From contig JALSLH010000093.1 in NCBI GenBank assembly GCA_026988435.1, positions 1 to 64,000 of the forward strand: 64,000 nucleotides of DNA. The letters run 5' to 3'. The position numbers were made by a program, and so were the translations under genes. Shown here one piece after another: positions 29,996-38,865 of the stretch (positions within the stretch are counted from its first letter, which is position 1; each line of letters starts with the position of its first letter). The notes below the pieces were generated by a model. The model was not told where the DNA came from. It saw only the letters and a program-made list of their open reading frames with translations, and made no database searches. Origin of the DNA: Methylophaga sp. Lineage in GTDB: Bacteria; Pseudomonadota; Gammaproteobacteria; Nitrosococcales; Methylophagaceae.

Positions 29996-30799
29996 TTGAC
30001 CTCATACGCTCCTACGCCCCTTTCTTTATCAATTATTCAATCTCAGCTAAATCAAAACACGCTTGATTTACTAGATGAAGTATTAATACACCAATCTGTT
30101 GCTTCAACTAATGATGAGTTATGGCAACGACAATCTGATGGAAAAAATACGCCCGCTGCTTGTCTAACTGAAACACAAACAGCAGGCCGTGGCCGGCGAG
30201 GTGATCTGTGGCATTCTCCTGCTTCTGGAAACTTATACCTATCTATAATATGGCCATTTCCCGCAGAAACAGCGCTTAATGGCCTTACGATTGCTATTGG
30301 AATAAGCCTGATAAATACCCTGAAAGAATTAGGAATCAATGGTTTACAGATAAAATGGCCGAATGATATTTTACATAAAAGACGAAAGTTAGCCGGAATT
30401 CTAGTAGAATCACGTTTCGGTAAACAACAAAATACCGTTGTGGGCATCGGCCTCAATTTTGAGCTTCCGACTGCTACTCAACAACAAATTCAACAATCAA
30501 CCACCAGTCTTCAACAGCTTTGTACAAACGTACCCTGTAGAAATGAACTGGCAGGAAAAATAATTAATACAATGATAGAAACATTACAACACTTCCAAAG
30601 TCATGGTTTGCATGATTTTATTAGCCAATGGCCGCAATATGATGCATTAGATAATCAAGCCATTACATTAATCAATGATACTCAACACACTGATGCAATA
30701 GCACGTGGCATCAATGAACAAGGTGAGCTCCGTTATCAAATCGGTGATAAAATTCATACCCTGTCTAACAGCCATATCAGCATAAGGTTTGCATCATGA
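29996..30799 (+). CDS. birA: Biotin--[acetyl-CoA carboxylase] ligase, monofunctional
   Basis: BirA attaches biotin to the AccB carrier protein. The 267-residue protein has the substrate motif 'VASTNDELW', the biotin loop 'AGRGRRGDLWHSPASGNLYLSI' and 'IKWPNDILHKRRKLAGILVES'. It lacks the N-terminal helix-turn-helix of E. coli BirA, so it should not act as the bio operon repressor. The start is uncertain: TTG 29996 is the only plausible start before the conserved region and has no clear ribosome-binding site. It overlaps coaX by 4 nt. Confidence 0.93.
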   Translation: MTSYAPTPLSLSIIQSQLNQNTLDLLDEVLIHQSVASTNDELWQRQSDGKNTPAACLTETQTAGRGRRGDLWHSPASGNLYLSIIWPFPAETALNGLTIAIGISLINTLKELGINGLQIKWPNDILHKRRKLAGILVESRFGKQQNTVVGIGLNFELPTATQQQIQQSTTSLQQLCTNVPCRNELAGKIINTMIETLQHFQSHGLHDFISQWPQYDALDNQAITLINDTQHTDAIARGINEQGELRYQIGDKIHTLSNSHISIRFAS

Positions 30800-31725
30800 A
30801 ATTATTAGTCGATATTGGTAATACCCGAGTCAAATGGGCAGTACTTGAAAAAGGTGGCCCAATCGAAAGCCATCATTTCACTCGTAAAAAAACAACCATC
30901 AAAACATCGCTCACCAGCGAATGGAAAGCACTCGAAGGGATCGAATCTATTCATGTTTCTAATGTTGCAGGCGATAAAATAGCCCAGCAACTGACCGAGT
31001 GGGCAGAAAAGAAATGGCAGATCACACCGACATTTGTAAAAAGTGAATCCAAACGCTTTGGCGTAACAAATTCTTATTCTGACCCTGAATTATTAGGCAT
31101 TGATCGCTGGTTAGCGATTATTGCGGCAAGACAACATGCACGCCAAGCCACCTGCATTATTGATTGTGGCACTGCCATTACTGTTGATATTGTTACCAAA
31201 TATGGCATTCACCAAGGCGGTATGATTTTGCCCGGTTTGTCACTGATGCGTGAAGCATTAGGTGATAATACCAATATGAGTGAAAACGCCGAAATCAGCG
31301 ATTTTAAAACCTTAGCCGTGAATACTCAAAGCGCAATTCAAGCCGGTACACTTTATACCGTATCCGCAAGTTTAGAACGCCTTATTGATGACCTAACGAC
31401 TCAATTTGATAATAAAATCCGCTTTATTATCACTGGCGGCGATGCAGAAACAATATTGCCATTAATTAGCGCATCGATCTCACATTACCCTGACATCGTA
31501 TTAAAAGGCCTCGCCTATTACGCCCGTCAAGGTGATAAAAAGCCACATCATCCACAACACGTCAAAACTGAAGAAACCACAGAAGCTGTGGAAGCTGTGG
31601 AAGCTGTGGAAGCTGTGGAAGCTGTGGAAGCTGTGGAAGCTGTGGAAGCTGTGGAAGCTGTGGAAGCTGTGGAAGCTGTGGAAGCTGTGGAAGCTGTGGA
31701 AGCTGTGGAAGCTGTGGAAGCATAA
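30796..31725 (+). CDS. coaX: Type III pantothenate kinase with a repetitive C-terminal tail
   Basis: CoaX phosphorylates pantothenate, the first step of CoA synthesis. The ASKHA fold is visible: '[13 protein letters not shown]' at the N-terminus, '[14 protein letters not shown]', '[14 protein letters not shown]' and 'GGMILPGL'. The catalytic domain would end near residue 250-260. After a histidine-rich linker and TEETT, the protein continues as 15 perfect EAV tripeptides plus EA, from a 9-bp DNA repeat. The total of 309 residues exceeds the usual 240-260. The tail is outside the kinase fold, so activity is likely kept. Confidence 0.95.
31582..31722 (+). repeat. Tandem 9-bp repeat (GAAGCTGTG), 15 perfect copies
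   Basis: The unit GAAGCTGTG repeats without a single mismatch from 31582 to 31716, followed by a partial GAAGCA and the stop codon. All copies are in frame in coaX (Glu-Ala-Val). Complete identity implies recent expansion by slippage or recombination, so copy number may vary between strains. Confidence 0.99.
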
Positions 31726-33521: not shown

Positions 33522-33611
33522 GGAGAGCTGGCCGAGCGGCCGATGGCGCACGCCTGGAAAGTGTGTATAGGTTTATCCCTATCGAGGGTTCGAATCCCTC
33601 GCTCTCCGCCA
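33522..33611 (+). tRNA. tRNA-Ser (anticodon GGA)
   Basis: The 90-nt gene has the long variable arm typical of serine tRNAs and encoded CCA. The acceptor GGAGAGC pairs with GCTCTCC, and anticodon loop CTGGAAA reads GGA. It forms the left border of the mobile patch. Confidence 0.96.
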
Positions 33612-33635: not shown

Positions 33636-33754
33636 TTGTTTACCCTTGATTATCTACTTACTAGGCCTTTTATCGAATTTTATATAAATATCTAATCTTG
33701 ACCCCATGATAACGCTTTGTTTCCCCTTGATTATGATATTACTAGGCGTTATAG
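33636..33754. repeat. Imperfect direct repeat left of the IS91 transposase
   Basis: Two copies about 38 nt long start at 33636 and 33717 (81 nt apart) and share TTGTTT-CCCTTGATTAT and TTACTAGGC. The second copy is bounded by ATAACGC and GCGTTAT in inverted orientation, a weak attC-like look. The 259-nt stretch from tRNA-Ser to the transposase otherwise holds no gene. Confidence 0.6.
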
Positions 33755-33870
33755 TCCGTATATGTATAAGAATTACAGGGAAACTCCTTTCCCGTTAATA
33801 ACAAGTTGTACAAATCGCTCCGCGAAGATCAAGTCAGTGCGCCACTGCAACTAACTGATAAATAAGGGAT

Positions 33871-35100
33871 ATGTCTAATCGAAAACTACAAAACCTGTTT
33901 AGAAGTCATCTCGATTATTTAGACAGGCTTCCTCAACCTCTAAAAAATAGGAAGGCGATTAGTGCCATTGCGTTTTGCCGTACCCCGGATATGGGGACGA
34001 GTTATTTCACGTGTGATAAGCAGCATAAGCCCATTGAGCAGTTTCATGCCTGCCGAAACCGCAGTTGTTATGTCTGTGCTTTAAAATCTAAGCAGGATTG
34101 GATTGAAAAACAAAAAAAACGTCTCCTTAATGTGCCTCATTTCCATGTTATCTTCACTTTGCCTCATGAGTATTTATCGCTGTGGCGATATAATCAAGCT
34201 TTGTTTGCGTCTATTTTGTTTAAGGCGTCTAAAGAAACCCTGTTAGAGTTGATGGCGGATACTAAGTATCACGGTGTACTACCCGGCTTGATGATCGCGC
34301 TTCATACGTGGGGCAGGAAGTTGACTTTGCACCCTCATGTGCATTGTTTGATTTCTGCGGGTGGGGTTAATGCGTCACATCATTGGCAGGAGTGTGGTCA
34401 ATTTTTATTACCTGTTCGGGTGGTGAAGTCTCTTTATCAGGGTAAGGTGCAAAGCTTCATAAAACAGGCTGTCGAGGATAAGGTATTATCGCTTCCATCT
34501 GATATGTCGATGACTGAGTTTCGTCGTTTATATCAACAGACTTACCGAAAAGAGTGGTGTGTGAGAATTGAGGAGCGATATGACCATGGCAAGGGGGTGA
34601 TGTTGTATTTGTCTCGCTATATCAAAGGAGGACCAGTATCACCCGAGCAAATTACATTTTGTGACAGGCAACAGGCGGTGCTTCGGTATTTAGATCATCG
34701 AGATAAGCAGATCAAAGACGTTACGCTGTCGTGTAAGGAGTTAATCAAACGTATTTTAGAGCATGTATCGCCAATAGGGTTTCATACGGTACGTCATTAT
34801 GGGCTTTATGCGGCCAGCAGTGGAAAACGACAATTGAGTTGTGTAAAAGATAAAGGAACACTGGTACATGCTAAAGTAGGCACTGGTGAAATCATAAGGA
34901 ATATGGTACTTTCGTGTAAAACCTGTGGGGGCGTTGTTCATCTGATTCATCGTTCATGGAAAAAGCATTCAAAAGCTTTTTCTATTAATAGAGAAACTAG
35001 TGAAAGCCCCTTTGTACAATCGGGTAGCCGAGGGTCTCTAACCCTCAGCCCCCACAACACCCTGCATGCGGCTCCGCACAGGGCGTTTCACTTAGGATAG
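33871..35100 (+). CDS. IS91-family (Y2 rolling-circle) transposase, C-terminus altered
   Basis: The protein has the family layout: an N-terminal zinc finger ('CRNRSCYVCALKSKQDWIEKQ'), the HUH region 'HPHVHCLISAGG' near residue 155 and the two catalytic tyrosines Y246 and Y250 in 'YLSRYIKGG'. A late CxxC ('SCKTCGG') follows. Only about 383 of the 409 residues come from the IS. The final 26 are read from the complementary strand of the group II intron, because the intron's 3' end lies near 35020. Catalytic parts are intact, so activity is possible. No IS end could be fixed on the right. Confidence 0.93.
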   Translation: MSNRKLQNLFRSHLDYLDRLPQPLKNRKAISAIAFCRTPDMGTSYFTCDKQHKPIEQFHACRNRSCYVCALKSKQDWIEKQKKRLLNVPHFHVIFTLPHEYLSLWRYNQALFASILFKASKETLLELMADTKYHGVLPGLMIALHTWGRKLTLHPHVHCLISAGGVNASHHWQECGQFLLPVRVVKSLYQGKVQSFIKQAVEDKVLSLPSDMSMTEFRRLYQQTYRKEWCVRIEERYDHGKGVMLYLSRYIKGGPVSPEQITFCDRQQAVLRYLDHRDKQIKDVTLSCKELIKRILEHVSPIGFHTVRHYGLYAASSGKRQLSCVKDKGTLVHAKVGTGEIIRNMVLSCKTCGGVVHLIHRSWKKHSKAFSINRETSESPFVQSGSRGSLTLSPHNTLHAAPHRAFHLG

Positions 35101-36939
35101 TGAAGTGCAATCCAGCCATCACGCAATGCATAAAGCCCTTCAGATTTTAAGTAATCAAGTGATAAAGCTTGATTGATCCCCGGGGATTTGGCACTGCGCC
35201 ATGGCCCTTTACTGGTGAGCCCACACGCCACTGCGGCTTGAACGTGTACACCTAATCTCATCAAATTCCTGACTTTGGTTCGAGGCTTTCGCCATTGTCG
35301 CCAGTAGGCCATTCGTACTCTGCGTCTGATCCATTGATCTAATTCAACACAGCGTTGATAGCTATTGGCTATTCCAAAATAGTTTATCCAACCACGTAAG
35401 TATTGGCTGAGTTTAAAGAGTTGATAGTGCATCGATACGCCCCAGTTGCGATTCGTCAACCGACGTACTTGCTGTTTAAAATTCAGCAAGCTCTTCGGGT
35501 GCCATTGAATGCGTCCTCCCTTGAAGGTGAATCCAAGGAATTTGCTATCACTGGTTTTAACGACGTGACTTTTGGTGGTGTTCACCACCAATTTCAAACG
35601 GTCATTCAAGAATCTGCTGATACTACTGAGCACTCGCTCACCTGCTCGGGGTGTCTTGACCAAAATAGTAAAGTCATCCGCGTAGCGAGCAAAGTGGTGG
35701 CCTCGTTTCTCCAGTTCTTTGTCCAAAGGATCGAGCATGATGTTGGCCAATAGCGGCGATAAAGGTCCGCCTTGTGGTACACCTTCTCGACTTTCACTAT
35801 AACGCTGCTTGTCAATGATCCCAGCTCGTAAGTAACGTTTGATCAGTTGAAGTACTCGCTTGTCCTTTACTTTATAGCCAAGGTAAGTCATCAGTAAATC
35901 ATGATCAACGCGGTCAAAGAATTTTGACAGATCAACATCAACGGCAATACGACGCCCCGTCTTAATGATGTCTTTAACCTGTTTCACCGCTTGTTGCCCA
36001 TTTCGATTTGGCCTAAACCCAAAACTATTGTTTGAGAAGGTGGGGTCGAATATAGGGGTTAATACTTGAGCAATTGCTTGTTGGATAACCCTATCTATGA
36101 TCGTCGGGATCCCCAGTTGGCGTTGTCCACCATCCGATTTATCAATCTCAACACGTTTGACAGGAAAGGGGCGGTATTGCCCTGAGCGAAGCTCAGCCAT
36201 AATACGTTTCCAGTTATCCGCTTTTGCCCAATCGGGAAATTCATCAATGGTCATGCCATCAATGCCAGCGGCCCCGTTGTTGGCTCGAACTCGTTTCCAT
36301 GCAGCCAATATATTGGCTGAACAGAGGATAAGTTCAAGTAAATTGCCACTAAAGGCTGGCTGCATGCTATTACGCTGAGTCACGTCACTACCGGTCGGCA
36401 TTCGTGTGTTCAAGTTGAGCAAGGCTCCTCCTTTATTCTAAATGTTCAGGCCTTGACCGTGTCCCAACCATTACGATGGGCATTTGGCTACTATGCCGTC
36501 TGCTGACTTCTGCTTAATCATCACCAAAATTACTCTCAGTGACGCTACCGGTTTCCATCTATTCGCTCTTTCCAGTGGATGACTCTGAAAAGCCGAGGCA
36601 CTTCTATACCAGAGCCTGACTGGTTATTGACCGATCGCTTGTTAAGCAGATCTCCCCAGATAAGAACATGAACTTTCCCTGCACTGCTGCATCATTTACG
36701 GTGGCCGTTAAATCACATGGCTTCGTTGTCTTGTGCCAACTCGCCTCCAGCCTACGCCTCATATGATGTTCTTGTTCATCAGCTCGCAGTTTTGCATCCG
36801 GCTTCCTTCGGACCAAACCTCGCGGTTAAGCCCTTGCCTTTTGCTAGTAGTTATCGTCTAATAACAACATGGTTTTCGACGGTGATCTTCCTACAGAGGA
36901 CTTTCACCTCATTAGTTCATGCCCATGCTGGGCGTACAC
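35020..36939 (-). mobile_element. Class C group II intron (about 1.92 kb)
   Basis: On the minus strand the element begins GTGTACGCCCAGC (36939 downward), encodes a reverse transcriptase, and ends about 35020 with the typical ...GGCTACCCGAT. Domain V is visible at 35058-35085 as a hairpin beginning CGCCCTG, with the CGC triad typical of class C introns. A domain VI hairpin is at 35030-35046. The 5' region 36423-36939 holds no protein gene and should be ribozyme domains I-III. The 5' exon is half of an integron attC site; the 3' exon is the IS91 region. Confidence 0.9.
35088..36422 (-). CDS. ltrA: Group II intron reverse transcriptase/maturase
   Basis: This 444-residue protein has RT motifs in order: 'GAAGIDGMTIDEF' (RT0/1), 'RQLGIPTIIDRVIQQAI', 'NSFGFRPNRNGQQAV', 'VDVDLSKFFDRVDHDLLM', 'GVPQGGPLSPLLANIMLD' and the catalytic YADD at 247-250. 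The maturase GIIM domain follows ('QYLRGWINYFGIA'). There is no C-terminal HNH endonuclease, as expected for class C introns, which insert at terminators or attC hairpins. All catalytic residues are intact. The stop codon lies just before domain V. Confidence 0.96.
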   Translation of the reverse strand: MLNLNTRMPTGSDVTQRNSMQPAFSGNLLELILCSANILAAWKRVRANNGAAGIDGMTIDEFPDWAKADNWKRIMAELRSGQYRPFPVKRVEIDKSDGGQRQLGIPTIIDRVIQQAIAQVLTPIFDPTFSNNSFGFRPNRNGQQAVKQVKDIIKTGRRIAVDVDLSKFFDRVDHDLLMTYLGYKVKDKRVLQLIKRYLRAGIIDKQRYSESREGVPQGGPLSPLLANIMLDPLDKELEKRGHHFARYADDFTILVKTPRAGERVLSSISRFLNDRLKLVVNTTKSHVVKTSDSKFLGFTFKGGRIQWHPKSLLNFKQQVRRLTNRNWGVSMHYQLFKLSQYLRGWINYFGIANSYQRCVELDQWIRRRVRMAYWRQWRKPRTKVRNLMRLGVHVQAAVACGLTSKGPWRSAKSPGINQALSLDYLKSEGLYALRDGWIALHYPK

Positions 36940-37051
36940 AAATAGATCAAGCGGAATTTGCAATCGTACCTTTCGGAAAGATCGGCGAATTTTCAAGCGC
37001 ATGATCTTTTTTTTAGGCATTATGCAAATCCGCTTATCTAAAACGTTAGGG
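36940..37051 (+). other. Integron attC-like site, left end replaced by the intron
   Basis: Arms at 36944-36962 and 37023-37039 pair along AGAT-AAGCGGA-TTTGCA, and the left arm has two unpaired extra bases (C36948 and one A near 36955), the extrahelical-base hallmark of attC. The right end is GTTAGGG (37045-37051), close to the R' consensus GTTRRRY. The matching R'' (RYYYAAC) is missing because the intron starts exactly there. An inner hairpin AAAGATC/GATCTTT forms the variable terminal part. Confidence 0.72.
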
Positions 37052-37063
37052 TTCGAGAAATCA

Positions 37064-37699
37064 ATGGCAACTAAAGTAAACTTCTTTGACAAAAACTTAG
37101 TTATCTACCGAGAACTTTCCAATGTTCTTGGTTTGGGACTGCTGATAAGTGTTTTTTGCATTGGTTTTGGAGCATGGTTTCTAAAATCAATGCCAGATGA
37201 AATATTTCCTCGCGTTTTCGGAATGCTATTTATCACTATCGGTATTTTGGTTTTAATTGGTTTACCTAAATATTATGGCAAAATGAAAAACAAGTCTGGC
37301 GCAATCATATTTGAAGCTGACGTAAAAGGAATCTCTGAAGGATCGCCATTAAATACTCTTGAAAATAACTACGCTTGGAATAGTATTGAAAAAATCATAT
37401 TAGCCTCGAAGCATATTGAAAAGGGGCTTGATAGTGACGGAGCATCCCATAGCTGGAATATTATGTTTATTTTTTTAAATAAAAAAACAAATAATAATTT
37501 TGGTCTCATACAACGCAGTAAAAAACAGATTAGCATTTCTCCAAAAGGGCATAACTTTATATCCATTCAGCTTCCAAAAAATAGCTTAATTGATATTAGA
37601 GAAAAACTAGCTTCTCTATCAAAGAATCAAATAGAAATATCTGTTTGTAAACATTTTGAATTTCATTACGGTAAAGACATTGAAGCAATTACACCCTAA
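37064..37699 (+). CDS. Integron-cassette-like gene, membrane protein of unknown function
   Basis: I do not recognise this 211-residue protein. It has two membrane helices near the N-terminus (about residues 21-43 and 48-68) and a soluble C-terminal domain with many Lys, Asn and Ile; the DNA is more AT-rich than its neighbours. I chose ATG 37064, 13 nt after the attC GTTAGGG, the usual position of a cassette gene start. Longer in-frame readings run into the attC and the intron. No second attC is visible downstream, so the cassette has lost its own recombination site or was cut off. Confidence 0.7.
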   Translation: MATKVNFFDKNLVIYRELSNVLGLGLLISVFCIGFGAWFLKSMPDEIFPRVFGMLFITIGILVLIGLPKYYGKMKNKSGAIIFEADVKGISEGSPLNTLENNYAWNSIEKIILASKHIEKGLDSDGASHSWNIMFIFLNKKTNNNFGLIQRSKKQISISPKGHNFISIQLPKNSLIDIREKLASLSKNQIEISVCKHFEFHYGKDIEAITP

Positions 37700-37770
37700 A
37701 AAATCGCTCAACTTGACCGTGATCCTCCCCCACTAAAGTGGACACCAAAATCCAACAACAAGATGAGGCA

Positions 37771-38754
37771 TTAGCTTAATCCAAAGCTCTGTACAGCATT
37801 AATACTCTTCTTATCCAAAACCAACATCATCAACCGATCAACACCAACAGCCACACCAGAACATTCAGGTAAACCCGATTGCATGGCGGCAAGGAGATTT
37901 TCATCTATTGGTATTATTGGTTTGCCTTGTTGTTTTCGTTGCTGATTATCTGCTTCGAAGCGCTGGCGTAATTCATCAGCATCTAATAATTCATTATAGC
38001 CATTGGCAAGTTCAACGCCATCAATATAAAGCTCAAAACGATCAGCGACTGCATTGCCTTGTTGATCGTATTTAATTTTAGCTAATTGTGCTTGTGATGC
38101 GGGGAAGTCATAGATAAAAAGTGGACAATTTAGGCTGGCTAATTTGGGTTCTATTACATAGCTCATTAGTAGTTCTTGCCAGCCATCCCTATCGGTTTCA
38201 AAATCTTTCGGTAGTGAATTTATTCGCGCCTGTGCACAGTGTTTTATGTCATTATCAGGGCAGGTCAATACATTTAACTTAAAGAAAAACTCAAACACAG
38301 CGCGATAACTTAAACGCATAACGGAATTAATTTGAAAAACGTGCTGCAAAAGTGCATTGACCTCATCAATAAGTTGATGCAAGTTTAGTCCCGGGCGATA
38401 CCATTCCAGCATGGTGAATTCAGGCGAATGCAGTCTGCCCTGTTCACCATTGCGAAAGACGCGGGCTATTTGATAGATTGAACCCGAGTCTGCCGCCAGC
38501 AATCGCTTCATTGTGAATTCGGGTGAGGTTTGCAGGTAATGCGTTTGTTTGCTATTTGTACCTATGGGGGCATAGTCGGTGGTAAAGCTATCTAAATAAG
38601 GCGCTGTGGGCGCTGTTATTGACAGTATTGGGGTTTCGACCTCCCACACATCACGTTCAGCAAAAAAAAGGCGGGCATCAGCTAAATACTGAGCCCGCTT
38701 TTTTAGTGTTTCTATATCAGCTGAGGGTTGCCAGCTTTTTCCATTTACACTCAT
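37771..38754 (-). CDS. epmA: EF-P--(R)-beta-lysine ligase EpmA (PoxA/GenX)
   Basis: EpmA is a truncated lysyl-tRNA-synthetase homologue that attaches beta-lysine to Lys34 of EF-P. The 327-residue protein has class II motif 2 'FRNGEQGRLHSPEFTMLEWYR' and motif 3 'GVAVGVDRLMMLVL', without an anticodon-binding domain. I chose ATG 38754 ('MSVNGKSWQPSADIETLKKR'), which matches the EpmA N-terminus; the longer reading from 38799 would translate a palindromic repeat. efp lies just upstream on the same strand. Confidence 0.95.
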   Translation of the reverse strand: MSVNGKSWQPSADIETLKKRAQYLADARLFFAERDVWEVETPILSITAPTAPYLDSFTTDYAPIGTNSKQTHYLQTSPEFTMKRLLAADSGSIYQIARVFRNGEQGRLHSPEFTMLEWYRPGLNLHQLIDEVNALLQHVFQINSVMRLSYRAVFEFFFKLNVLTCPDNDIKHCAQARINSLPKDFETDRDGWQELLMSYVIEPKLASLNCPLFIYDFPASQAQLAKIKYDQQGNAVADRFELYIDGVELANGYNELLDADELRQRFEADNQQRKQQGKPIIPIDENLLAAMQSGLPECSGVAVGVDRLMMLVLDKKSINAVQSFGLS

Positions 38755-38764
38755 TAATTTCTCT

Positions 38765-38865
38765 GTCATCCCCGCATGTTTTAAGCGGGGCTCTTCCATG
38801 CACGGTTTAAACAGTGACTATATTGCTTACTCCATAGATTCTCGATAAAAGAATTCGAGAATGAC
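38765..38865. repeat. Palindromic intergenic repeat (GTCAT family), two hairpins
   Basis: The element opens with GTCAT (38765) and closes with ATGAC (38865). Each end is a hairpin: CCCCGC/GCGGGG (38770-38790) and ATTCTCGA/TCGAGAAT (38838-38862). It fills the gap between efp and epmA and overlaps the longer N-terminal reading of epmA. Its outer ends match the repeat at 33352-33423, although the cores differ. Confidence 0.7.

Follow-up and report, generated by a model that had tools for sequence, protein, structure and literature searches.

A group IIC-attC intron in an IS91-type transposase cassette at a putative satellite attI suggests a distributed integron in Methylophaga-related bacteria

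The window analysed here, that is, the whole stretch of 64,000 nucleotides from a Methylophaga genome, contains a short array of gene cassettes. A tRNA-Ser (GGA) gene (33522..33611, plus strand; Rfam and ARAGORN) lies directly upstream of an element corresponding to the attI site of an integron: a partial upstream copy of its left half (33636..33672, plus; 81% identity over 37 bp by blastn and a half match to profile R1) is followed by a satellite copy (33705..33811, plus; 92 bits with profile R1) that contains the core GTTGTAC (33805-33811). Inside this copy, a promoter-like motif (TTGATT-17-TATAGT; 33727..33755, plus) would be directed toward the cassette. Cassette 1, which includes an intron, begins at the base next to the core G and ends with the G of the attC core (33806..37045, plus). 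Cassette 2 (37046..37700, plus) consists of an open reading frame of 211 amino acids without family match (37064-37699), followed by the relic R'' (CCCTAAA) of a truncated attC; the array of the window comprises this relic and one complete, intron-split attC. Between 37694 and 37760, the relic R'' and half an attC end cassette 2 and are followed by TCCCCCACTAAAGTGGACACC, which resembles the end of an insertion sequence. The right boundary of the site, also in a sister species (locus L190; 83.8% amino acid identity), is an epmA-like gene (37771..38799, minus). Upstream of the array, the open reading frame at 30796-31725 (pantothenate-kinase-like by eye) has a C-terminus made up of a long EAV repeat, encoded by a tandem DNA repeat within the gene (31620-31725).

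The intron (35019..36937, minus strand; 1919 nt) belongs to group IIC-attC. Its ends were assigned by comparison with four relatives, taken together with their flanks from class 1 integrons of E. coli, Klebsiella and Providencia and from a Vibrio campbellii plasmid, to which it is 70–78% identical at the DNA level. The Rfam models D1D4-3 (137 bits), D1D4-1 (61.5 bits) and gpII D5 (48 bits) all matched the minus strand above their gathering scores. The intron-encoded protein of 444 amino acids (35088..36422, minus) carries the RVT_1 and GIIM domains, scores 413 bits with TIGR04416 and is 69–79% identical to LtrA of the plasmid relatives; a domain search found no domains beyond those of reverse transcriptase and maturase. 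Ribozyme domains and protein thus agree with the preliminary description, which had placed a group II intron on the opposite strand. Its 5' end, given there as 36939, has to be moved by 2 nt, because the four relatives put the boundary at 36937: they all read TTGT/GTACGCCCAGC at the 5' junction (...TTGT/GTACGCCCAGCATGGGC when read further) and ...GGCTACCCGAT/TA at the 3' junction.

Introns of this class insert into R'' of the attC bottom strand at TTGT/T and are oriented opposite to the cassettes (PMC7923331). In the window, the intron likewise splits the bottom strand of attC at TTGT^T, as it does in the four plasmid relatives. Judged by ribozyme domains, protein and insertion site, it is a complete member of the family. 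Retrohoming into the folded attC bottom strand, at TTGT^T within R'', would account for its position, and this route is supported by the insertion point, the opposite orientation, a hairpin in the 5' exon and the identity to introns of integrons and plasmids; the earlier assignment to the IIC-attC family, with homing into the folded bottom strand, fits all of these features. When the intron was searched for in the other genomes of the family, no match was found at E ≤ 1e-60.

Read on the plus strand across the intron, the flanks are CCCCTTTGTACA/intron/ACAAATAGATC, or, more widely, ...GCCCCTTTGTACA (intron) ACAAATAGATCAAGCGG...GTTAGGG. The R'' of this attC is GTACAAC, which the intron cuts into GTACA (35014..35018, plus; abutting the 3' end of the intron) and AC, the latter being followed by the L'' arm, the L' arm and R' (GTTAGGG, 37045-37051) in the remaining part of the site (36938..37051, plus; delimited by folding). 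With the intron disregarded, R'' complements the cassette's own 5' end, GTTGTAC, 1.2 kb upstream, at 7/7 positions; as the motif dictates three of these seven bases, agreement at the remaining four has a chance of ∼1 in 256. With the intron left out, the bottom strand of attC folds, with extrahelical bases, at −19.5 kcal/mol, compared with −8.8 ± 2.5 kcal/mol in 300 mononucleotide shuffles, none of which was as low. The attC-like hairpin with extrahelical bases, ending in GTTAGGG beside the intron, had been correctly recognized. The R'' said to be absent from the 3' side of the intron is, however, there, its two halves flanking the intron. In an integrated array, a core contributes its last six bases to the right-hand cassette, whereas R'' complements the start of its own cassette. 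A complement of GTTAGGG is the wrong expectation for R'' because the last six bases of this motif (TTAGGG) belong to the next cassette. Searching the genome for further copies of the window attC yielded chance matches only. As 1919 nt of intron stand between R'' and the remainder of attC, cassette 1 would be locked in place, and as the intron is antisense to the transposase gene, splicing cannot restore the sense message of the transposase.

The site at which cassette 1 resides is not unique in the genome. Positions 33718-33812 are 95% identical to a stretch on contig C95 that lies ∼170 bp upstream of the only full-length integron integrase of the genome (TIGR02249, 437 bits; cut-off 265). There, the element is the attI heading the integrase's own cassette array, with matching attC, and the partial left-half copy is found beside intI as well. 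Altogether, the genome contains four copies of the ∼105-bp element (in the window and on C95, C5 and C53), each of which heads cassettes and shows a 7/7 match of core and R''; at C5 and C53, one matching attC each was found by script and more by eye. No intI adjoins the window copy, just downstream of tRNA-Ser, which would not count as an attI if adjacency to an intI of functional length were decisive, whereas on C95 this element does adjoin a full-length intI. By these comparisons, cassette 1 is docked at what appears to be a satellite copy of the integrase's attI.

Whether such copies are attI sites can be read from their conservation, which begins ∼100 bp before the core and drops right after GTTA of the core, from 97–100% to 31–54% at the next six positions, the point at which crossover puts different cassettes. 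Among the 54 copies with at least 0.8 kb of readable sequence, 26 were followed by an attC-like hairpin with an R'' exactly complementing their own core, compared with 0–4 matches (mean ∼2) when 7-mers of other copies were used as the control in 20 trials. That about half of the copies lacked a matching attC is attributed to decay, truncation or the crudeness of the detector. Some arrays chain through further cassettes (e.g., L177, L179, L191, L205 and L208). Within the element, an inner inverted repeat (GGGAA...TTCCC, alternating with GAGAA...TTCTC) is paired in 94% and an outer one (AATTCC...GGAATT, alternating with AACGC...GCGTT), picked by eye, in 71%. The covariation score of these helices exceeded that of all 500 shuffles and of all slid versions, the eye-chosen outer helix being the weaker evidence; RNAalifold alone recovered the inner hairpin only. 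The promoter-like TTGATT-17-TATAGT was found, with at least four matches in each hexamer, in 20 of 42 copies, and in these, about half of the total, it may drive the first cassette.

By blastn, the element was detected in 17 of the 29 genomes of the genus, with 15 matches in the richest one. A profile built from 42 copies matched 26 of the 57 genomes of the family, the top counts being 17, 13 and 10 with some half copies included; most of these genomes are fragmented metagenome bins (that of the window with 5.9% contamination), so copy numbers, and likewise the absence of intI, hold only approximately. In a class-wide sample of 369 genomes, the element is rare beyond the family, four other genomes giving matches (six in G405, three in G187, one each in G328 and G218). 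All four encode an IntI 50–70% identical to that of the window genome, in G405 beside one of the attI copies. At one locus of genome G027 (L183, G027:C12:226300-232300), two attI copies stand 3.6 kb apart with upstream flanks 86% identical, a tandem duplication of attI and flank. Longer flanks common to the copies, there and at L209 with L210, identify segmental duplication as another apparent route of attI copying. Two other candidate explanations, a REP-like spread of attI by a Y1 transposase and attI being the target of the IS91 transposase, were dropped; for the former there was no evidence, and for the latter a second insertion was not found.

Comparison between species indicated that the sites are kept while their cassettes differ. 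In nearly all pairs of orthologous satellites with alignable upstream flanks that were compared, the sequence after the core was different, and the genes downstream corresponded (epmA and efp at the window site and in G008; a sortase-like gene at C53, in G008 and G018; an mfnB-like gene at C5 and in G018). At the window's own site, the first cassette of G008 is, over 427 bp and from core to core, 97.2% identical to cassette 4 of the integrase array of the window genome, whereas the chromosome next to this site, on the epmA side, is only 83.6% identical. Cassette exchange between integrase array and satellite would thus postdate the split of the two species. Another cassette was found in two satellites of G027. 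Furthermore, cassette 4 of a satellite in the window genome (L021) and cassette 1 of a satellite situated elsewhere, in G027 (L184), carry the same gene, with ∼85% DNA identity over 496 bp.

Taken together, we consider it likely that these genomes contain a distributed integron, in which one integrase is accompanied by a family of as many as ∼15 attI ports scattered over the genome, part of them carrying a promoter. These ports would capture and exchange cassettes in trans and keep their chromosomal sites from species to species within a lineage related to Methylophaga; distant gammaproteobacteria would have such a system, too. It would be a further origin of CALINs (clusters of attC sites lacking integrase). 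IntI from its own locus would act on all attI copies, joining circular cassettes by their attC to any attI that it meets and being able to excise them again. One integrase would thereby maintain several mini-arrays at fixed chromosomal places, and about half of the attI copies may also supply the promoter for the first cassette. Recombination in trans at the satellites is deduced from evolutionary comparison, above all from the cassette held in common, core to core, with the integrase array.

The occurrence of the integrase itself bears on how the satellites arose. A full-length IntI of this clade (73–100% identity) was found once each in G000, G026, G008, G022, G024 and G006, and at most one matching full-length integrase was found per genome. 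Remnants of intI stand beside attI in G027, G014, G004 and at a second locus of G022. The integrase-type locus of G027 (L178, G027:C12:422559-428700), a genome with ∼15 attI copies, retains only fragments of both ends of intI, nearly all of which is lost. A second lineage of integron integrases (43–46% identity) occurs in relatives (G025:C8, G004:C89, G012:C39, G009:C73, G021:C37 and G405:C1). Several genomes have satellites, and in these no full-length IntI of this clade was found; part of the system is therefore relic. It could be argued that all satellites are relics of complete integrons, copied as intI plus attI and then deprived of intI, with no docking in trans at all. The intI remnants beside attI at three satellites (L206, L219 and L236), the deleted intI at L178, the one intact and one broken copy in G022, and the genomes with satellites but without full-length IntI of this clade would be expected from such a history. 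Most satellites, however, have no trace of intI in the 300–400 bp read upstream, and orthologous satellites carry differing cassettes, one of which appears younger than the species split. As a full explanation, this history is therefore unlikely; as an account of how the copies originated, it may be partly right, and it is compatible with use in trans. The pattern as a whole fits satellites that are served in trans while the integrase lasts and persist after its loss, and origin by copying of intI together with attI, followed by decay, may also apply.

Still less probable is a reading of the 105-bp element as a generic repeat dispersed in these genomes, which IntI happens to use as an off-target attG, and not as a copied attI. 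It is multi-copy and intergenic and has paired inverted repeats, and insertion at attG is an established route of cassettes, as far as the papers citing it relate (cited in PMC12444791 and PMC12690207). But the very same element is the attI adjoining full-length IntI in G000, G026, G006, G022, G024 and, in another family, G405, on the right it always ends at the integron core, and it is rare in the class-wide sample, where all four carriers outside the family encode IntI.

Two further alternatives concern the gene carried by cassette 1. The payload is an IS91-family transposase frame (33871..35018, plus; NF033538, 316 bits with a cut-off of 125; Y2_Tnp and Zn_Tnp_IS91), with 65 nt before and 0 nt after the gene between the matching core and R''. 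The frame continues into the intron, up to a stop at 35100, and without the intron would read on into attC. With its complete IS91-family domain architecture, the gene might be taken for a genuine insertion sequence that landed in attI. This is very improbable: the gene is bounded by matching core and R'', the tyrosine recombinase gene that adjoins the transposase in most other IS91 relatives fetched is absent beside it, and no second copy of the element was found in the genome. Moreover, its two best plasmid relatives, from Thiolapillus pTBH10 and from an IncN class 1 integron, between aadA2 and qacEdelta1, are cassettes, too (core GTTGAAC, R'' GTTCAAC, 7/7). It is scarcely credible that, as proposed in the preliminary description, retrohoming was followed by a rearrangement that swapped R'' for IS91 sequence, because, although an IS91-type transposase gene does stand 3' of the intron as described, it is the cassette's own gene between two valid boundaries, R'' lies on both sides of the intron with its 7/7 match to the cassette start, and the cassette is intact around the intron from attI core to attC. 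The IS91 sequence beside the intron is thus the payload of a gene cassette, composed of a gene and a hairpin attC whose R'' is complementary to the 5' end, and no rearrangement partner.

IS91-type transposase cassettes were observed in three unrelated settings (window 33871-35018; L270 1189-2418; L271 1501-2616), each of them having a GTTG core and an R'' complementary to it, and the frames of the window and of Thiolapillus continue into attC. A clade of cassette-borne transposases was considered and rejected, as the tree, with its long branches, fails to group the window, Thiolapillus and IncN sequences. A degenerate-peptide scan of the genome contigs revealed no close relatives of the transposase. 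In another genus, the first cassette after an attI in the last bases of a contig (L281, G031:C76) starts with TTGCACAAATCGCTCCGCGA, near the start of the window's transposase cassette, which may thus occur there as well. For the locus as a whole, it is likely that the intron resides in the attC of an IS91-type cassette docked at a satellite attI that is served in trans by a single IntI.

The type of intron is already known, whereas the architecture of satellite attI is, as far as the literature searched shows, undescribed. A literature search on attI in more than one copy or in orphan form found no description of satellite attI; the only match, judged by its title, deals with Salmonella genomic islands, and as subscription papers were mostly outside the search, this absence proves little. 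Should attI itself be able to exist in several copies, a single integrase could supply cassettes to multiple stable positions on the chromosome simultaneously, and many CALINs may own an attI for which present programs do not search. Any genome lends itself to a test, in which the DNA beside intI is searched against that genome. In Xanthomonas, non-ilvD CALINs at conserved places have been described (PMC12444791), and these may merit a look for attI copies.

Compared with the IIC-attC introns of class 1 integrons in Enterobacterales (PMC7923331), the window intron has the same kind of reverse transcriptase/maturase, the same ends, the same TTGT/T site and the same orientation; there is no essential difference, its attC being that of a cassette that carries an IS91-type transposase gene and is docked at a satellite attI. 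Integrons typically have one attI, near the integrase (PMC9024848). In this respect, the C95 locus, with intI, adjacent attI and cassettes with matching attC, is like a sedentary chromosomal integron, to which the window genome adds three attI copies without intI, and its relatives up to about 15. CALINs are about as common as complete integrons (PMC9024848), and the origins listed for them are off-target insertion, loss of intI and rearrangement, extra attI copies not being among them (PMC8618304). The satellite arrays resemble CALINs in standing away from intI and in having positions conserved between species, but differ from them in that each is headed by a recognizable copy of the integrase's own attI. 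Insertion at attG (Loot et al, 2024, as presented in papers citing it) likewise places cassettes outside the integrase locus in trans; according to those papers, its target is a loose, core-like genomic site, whereas the target here would be a copied attI of 105 bp.
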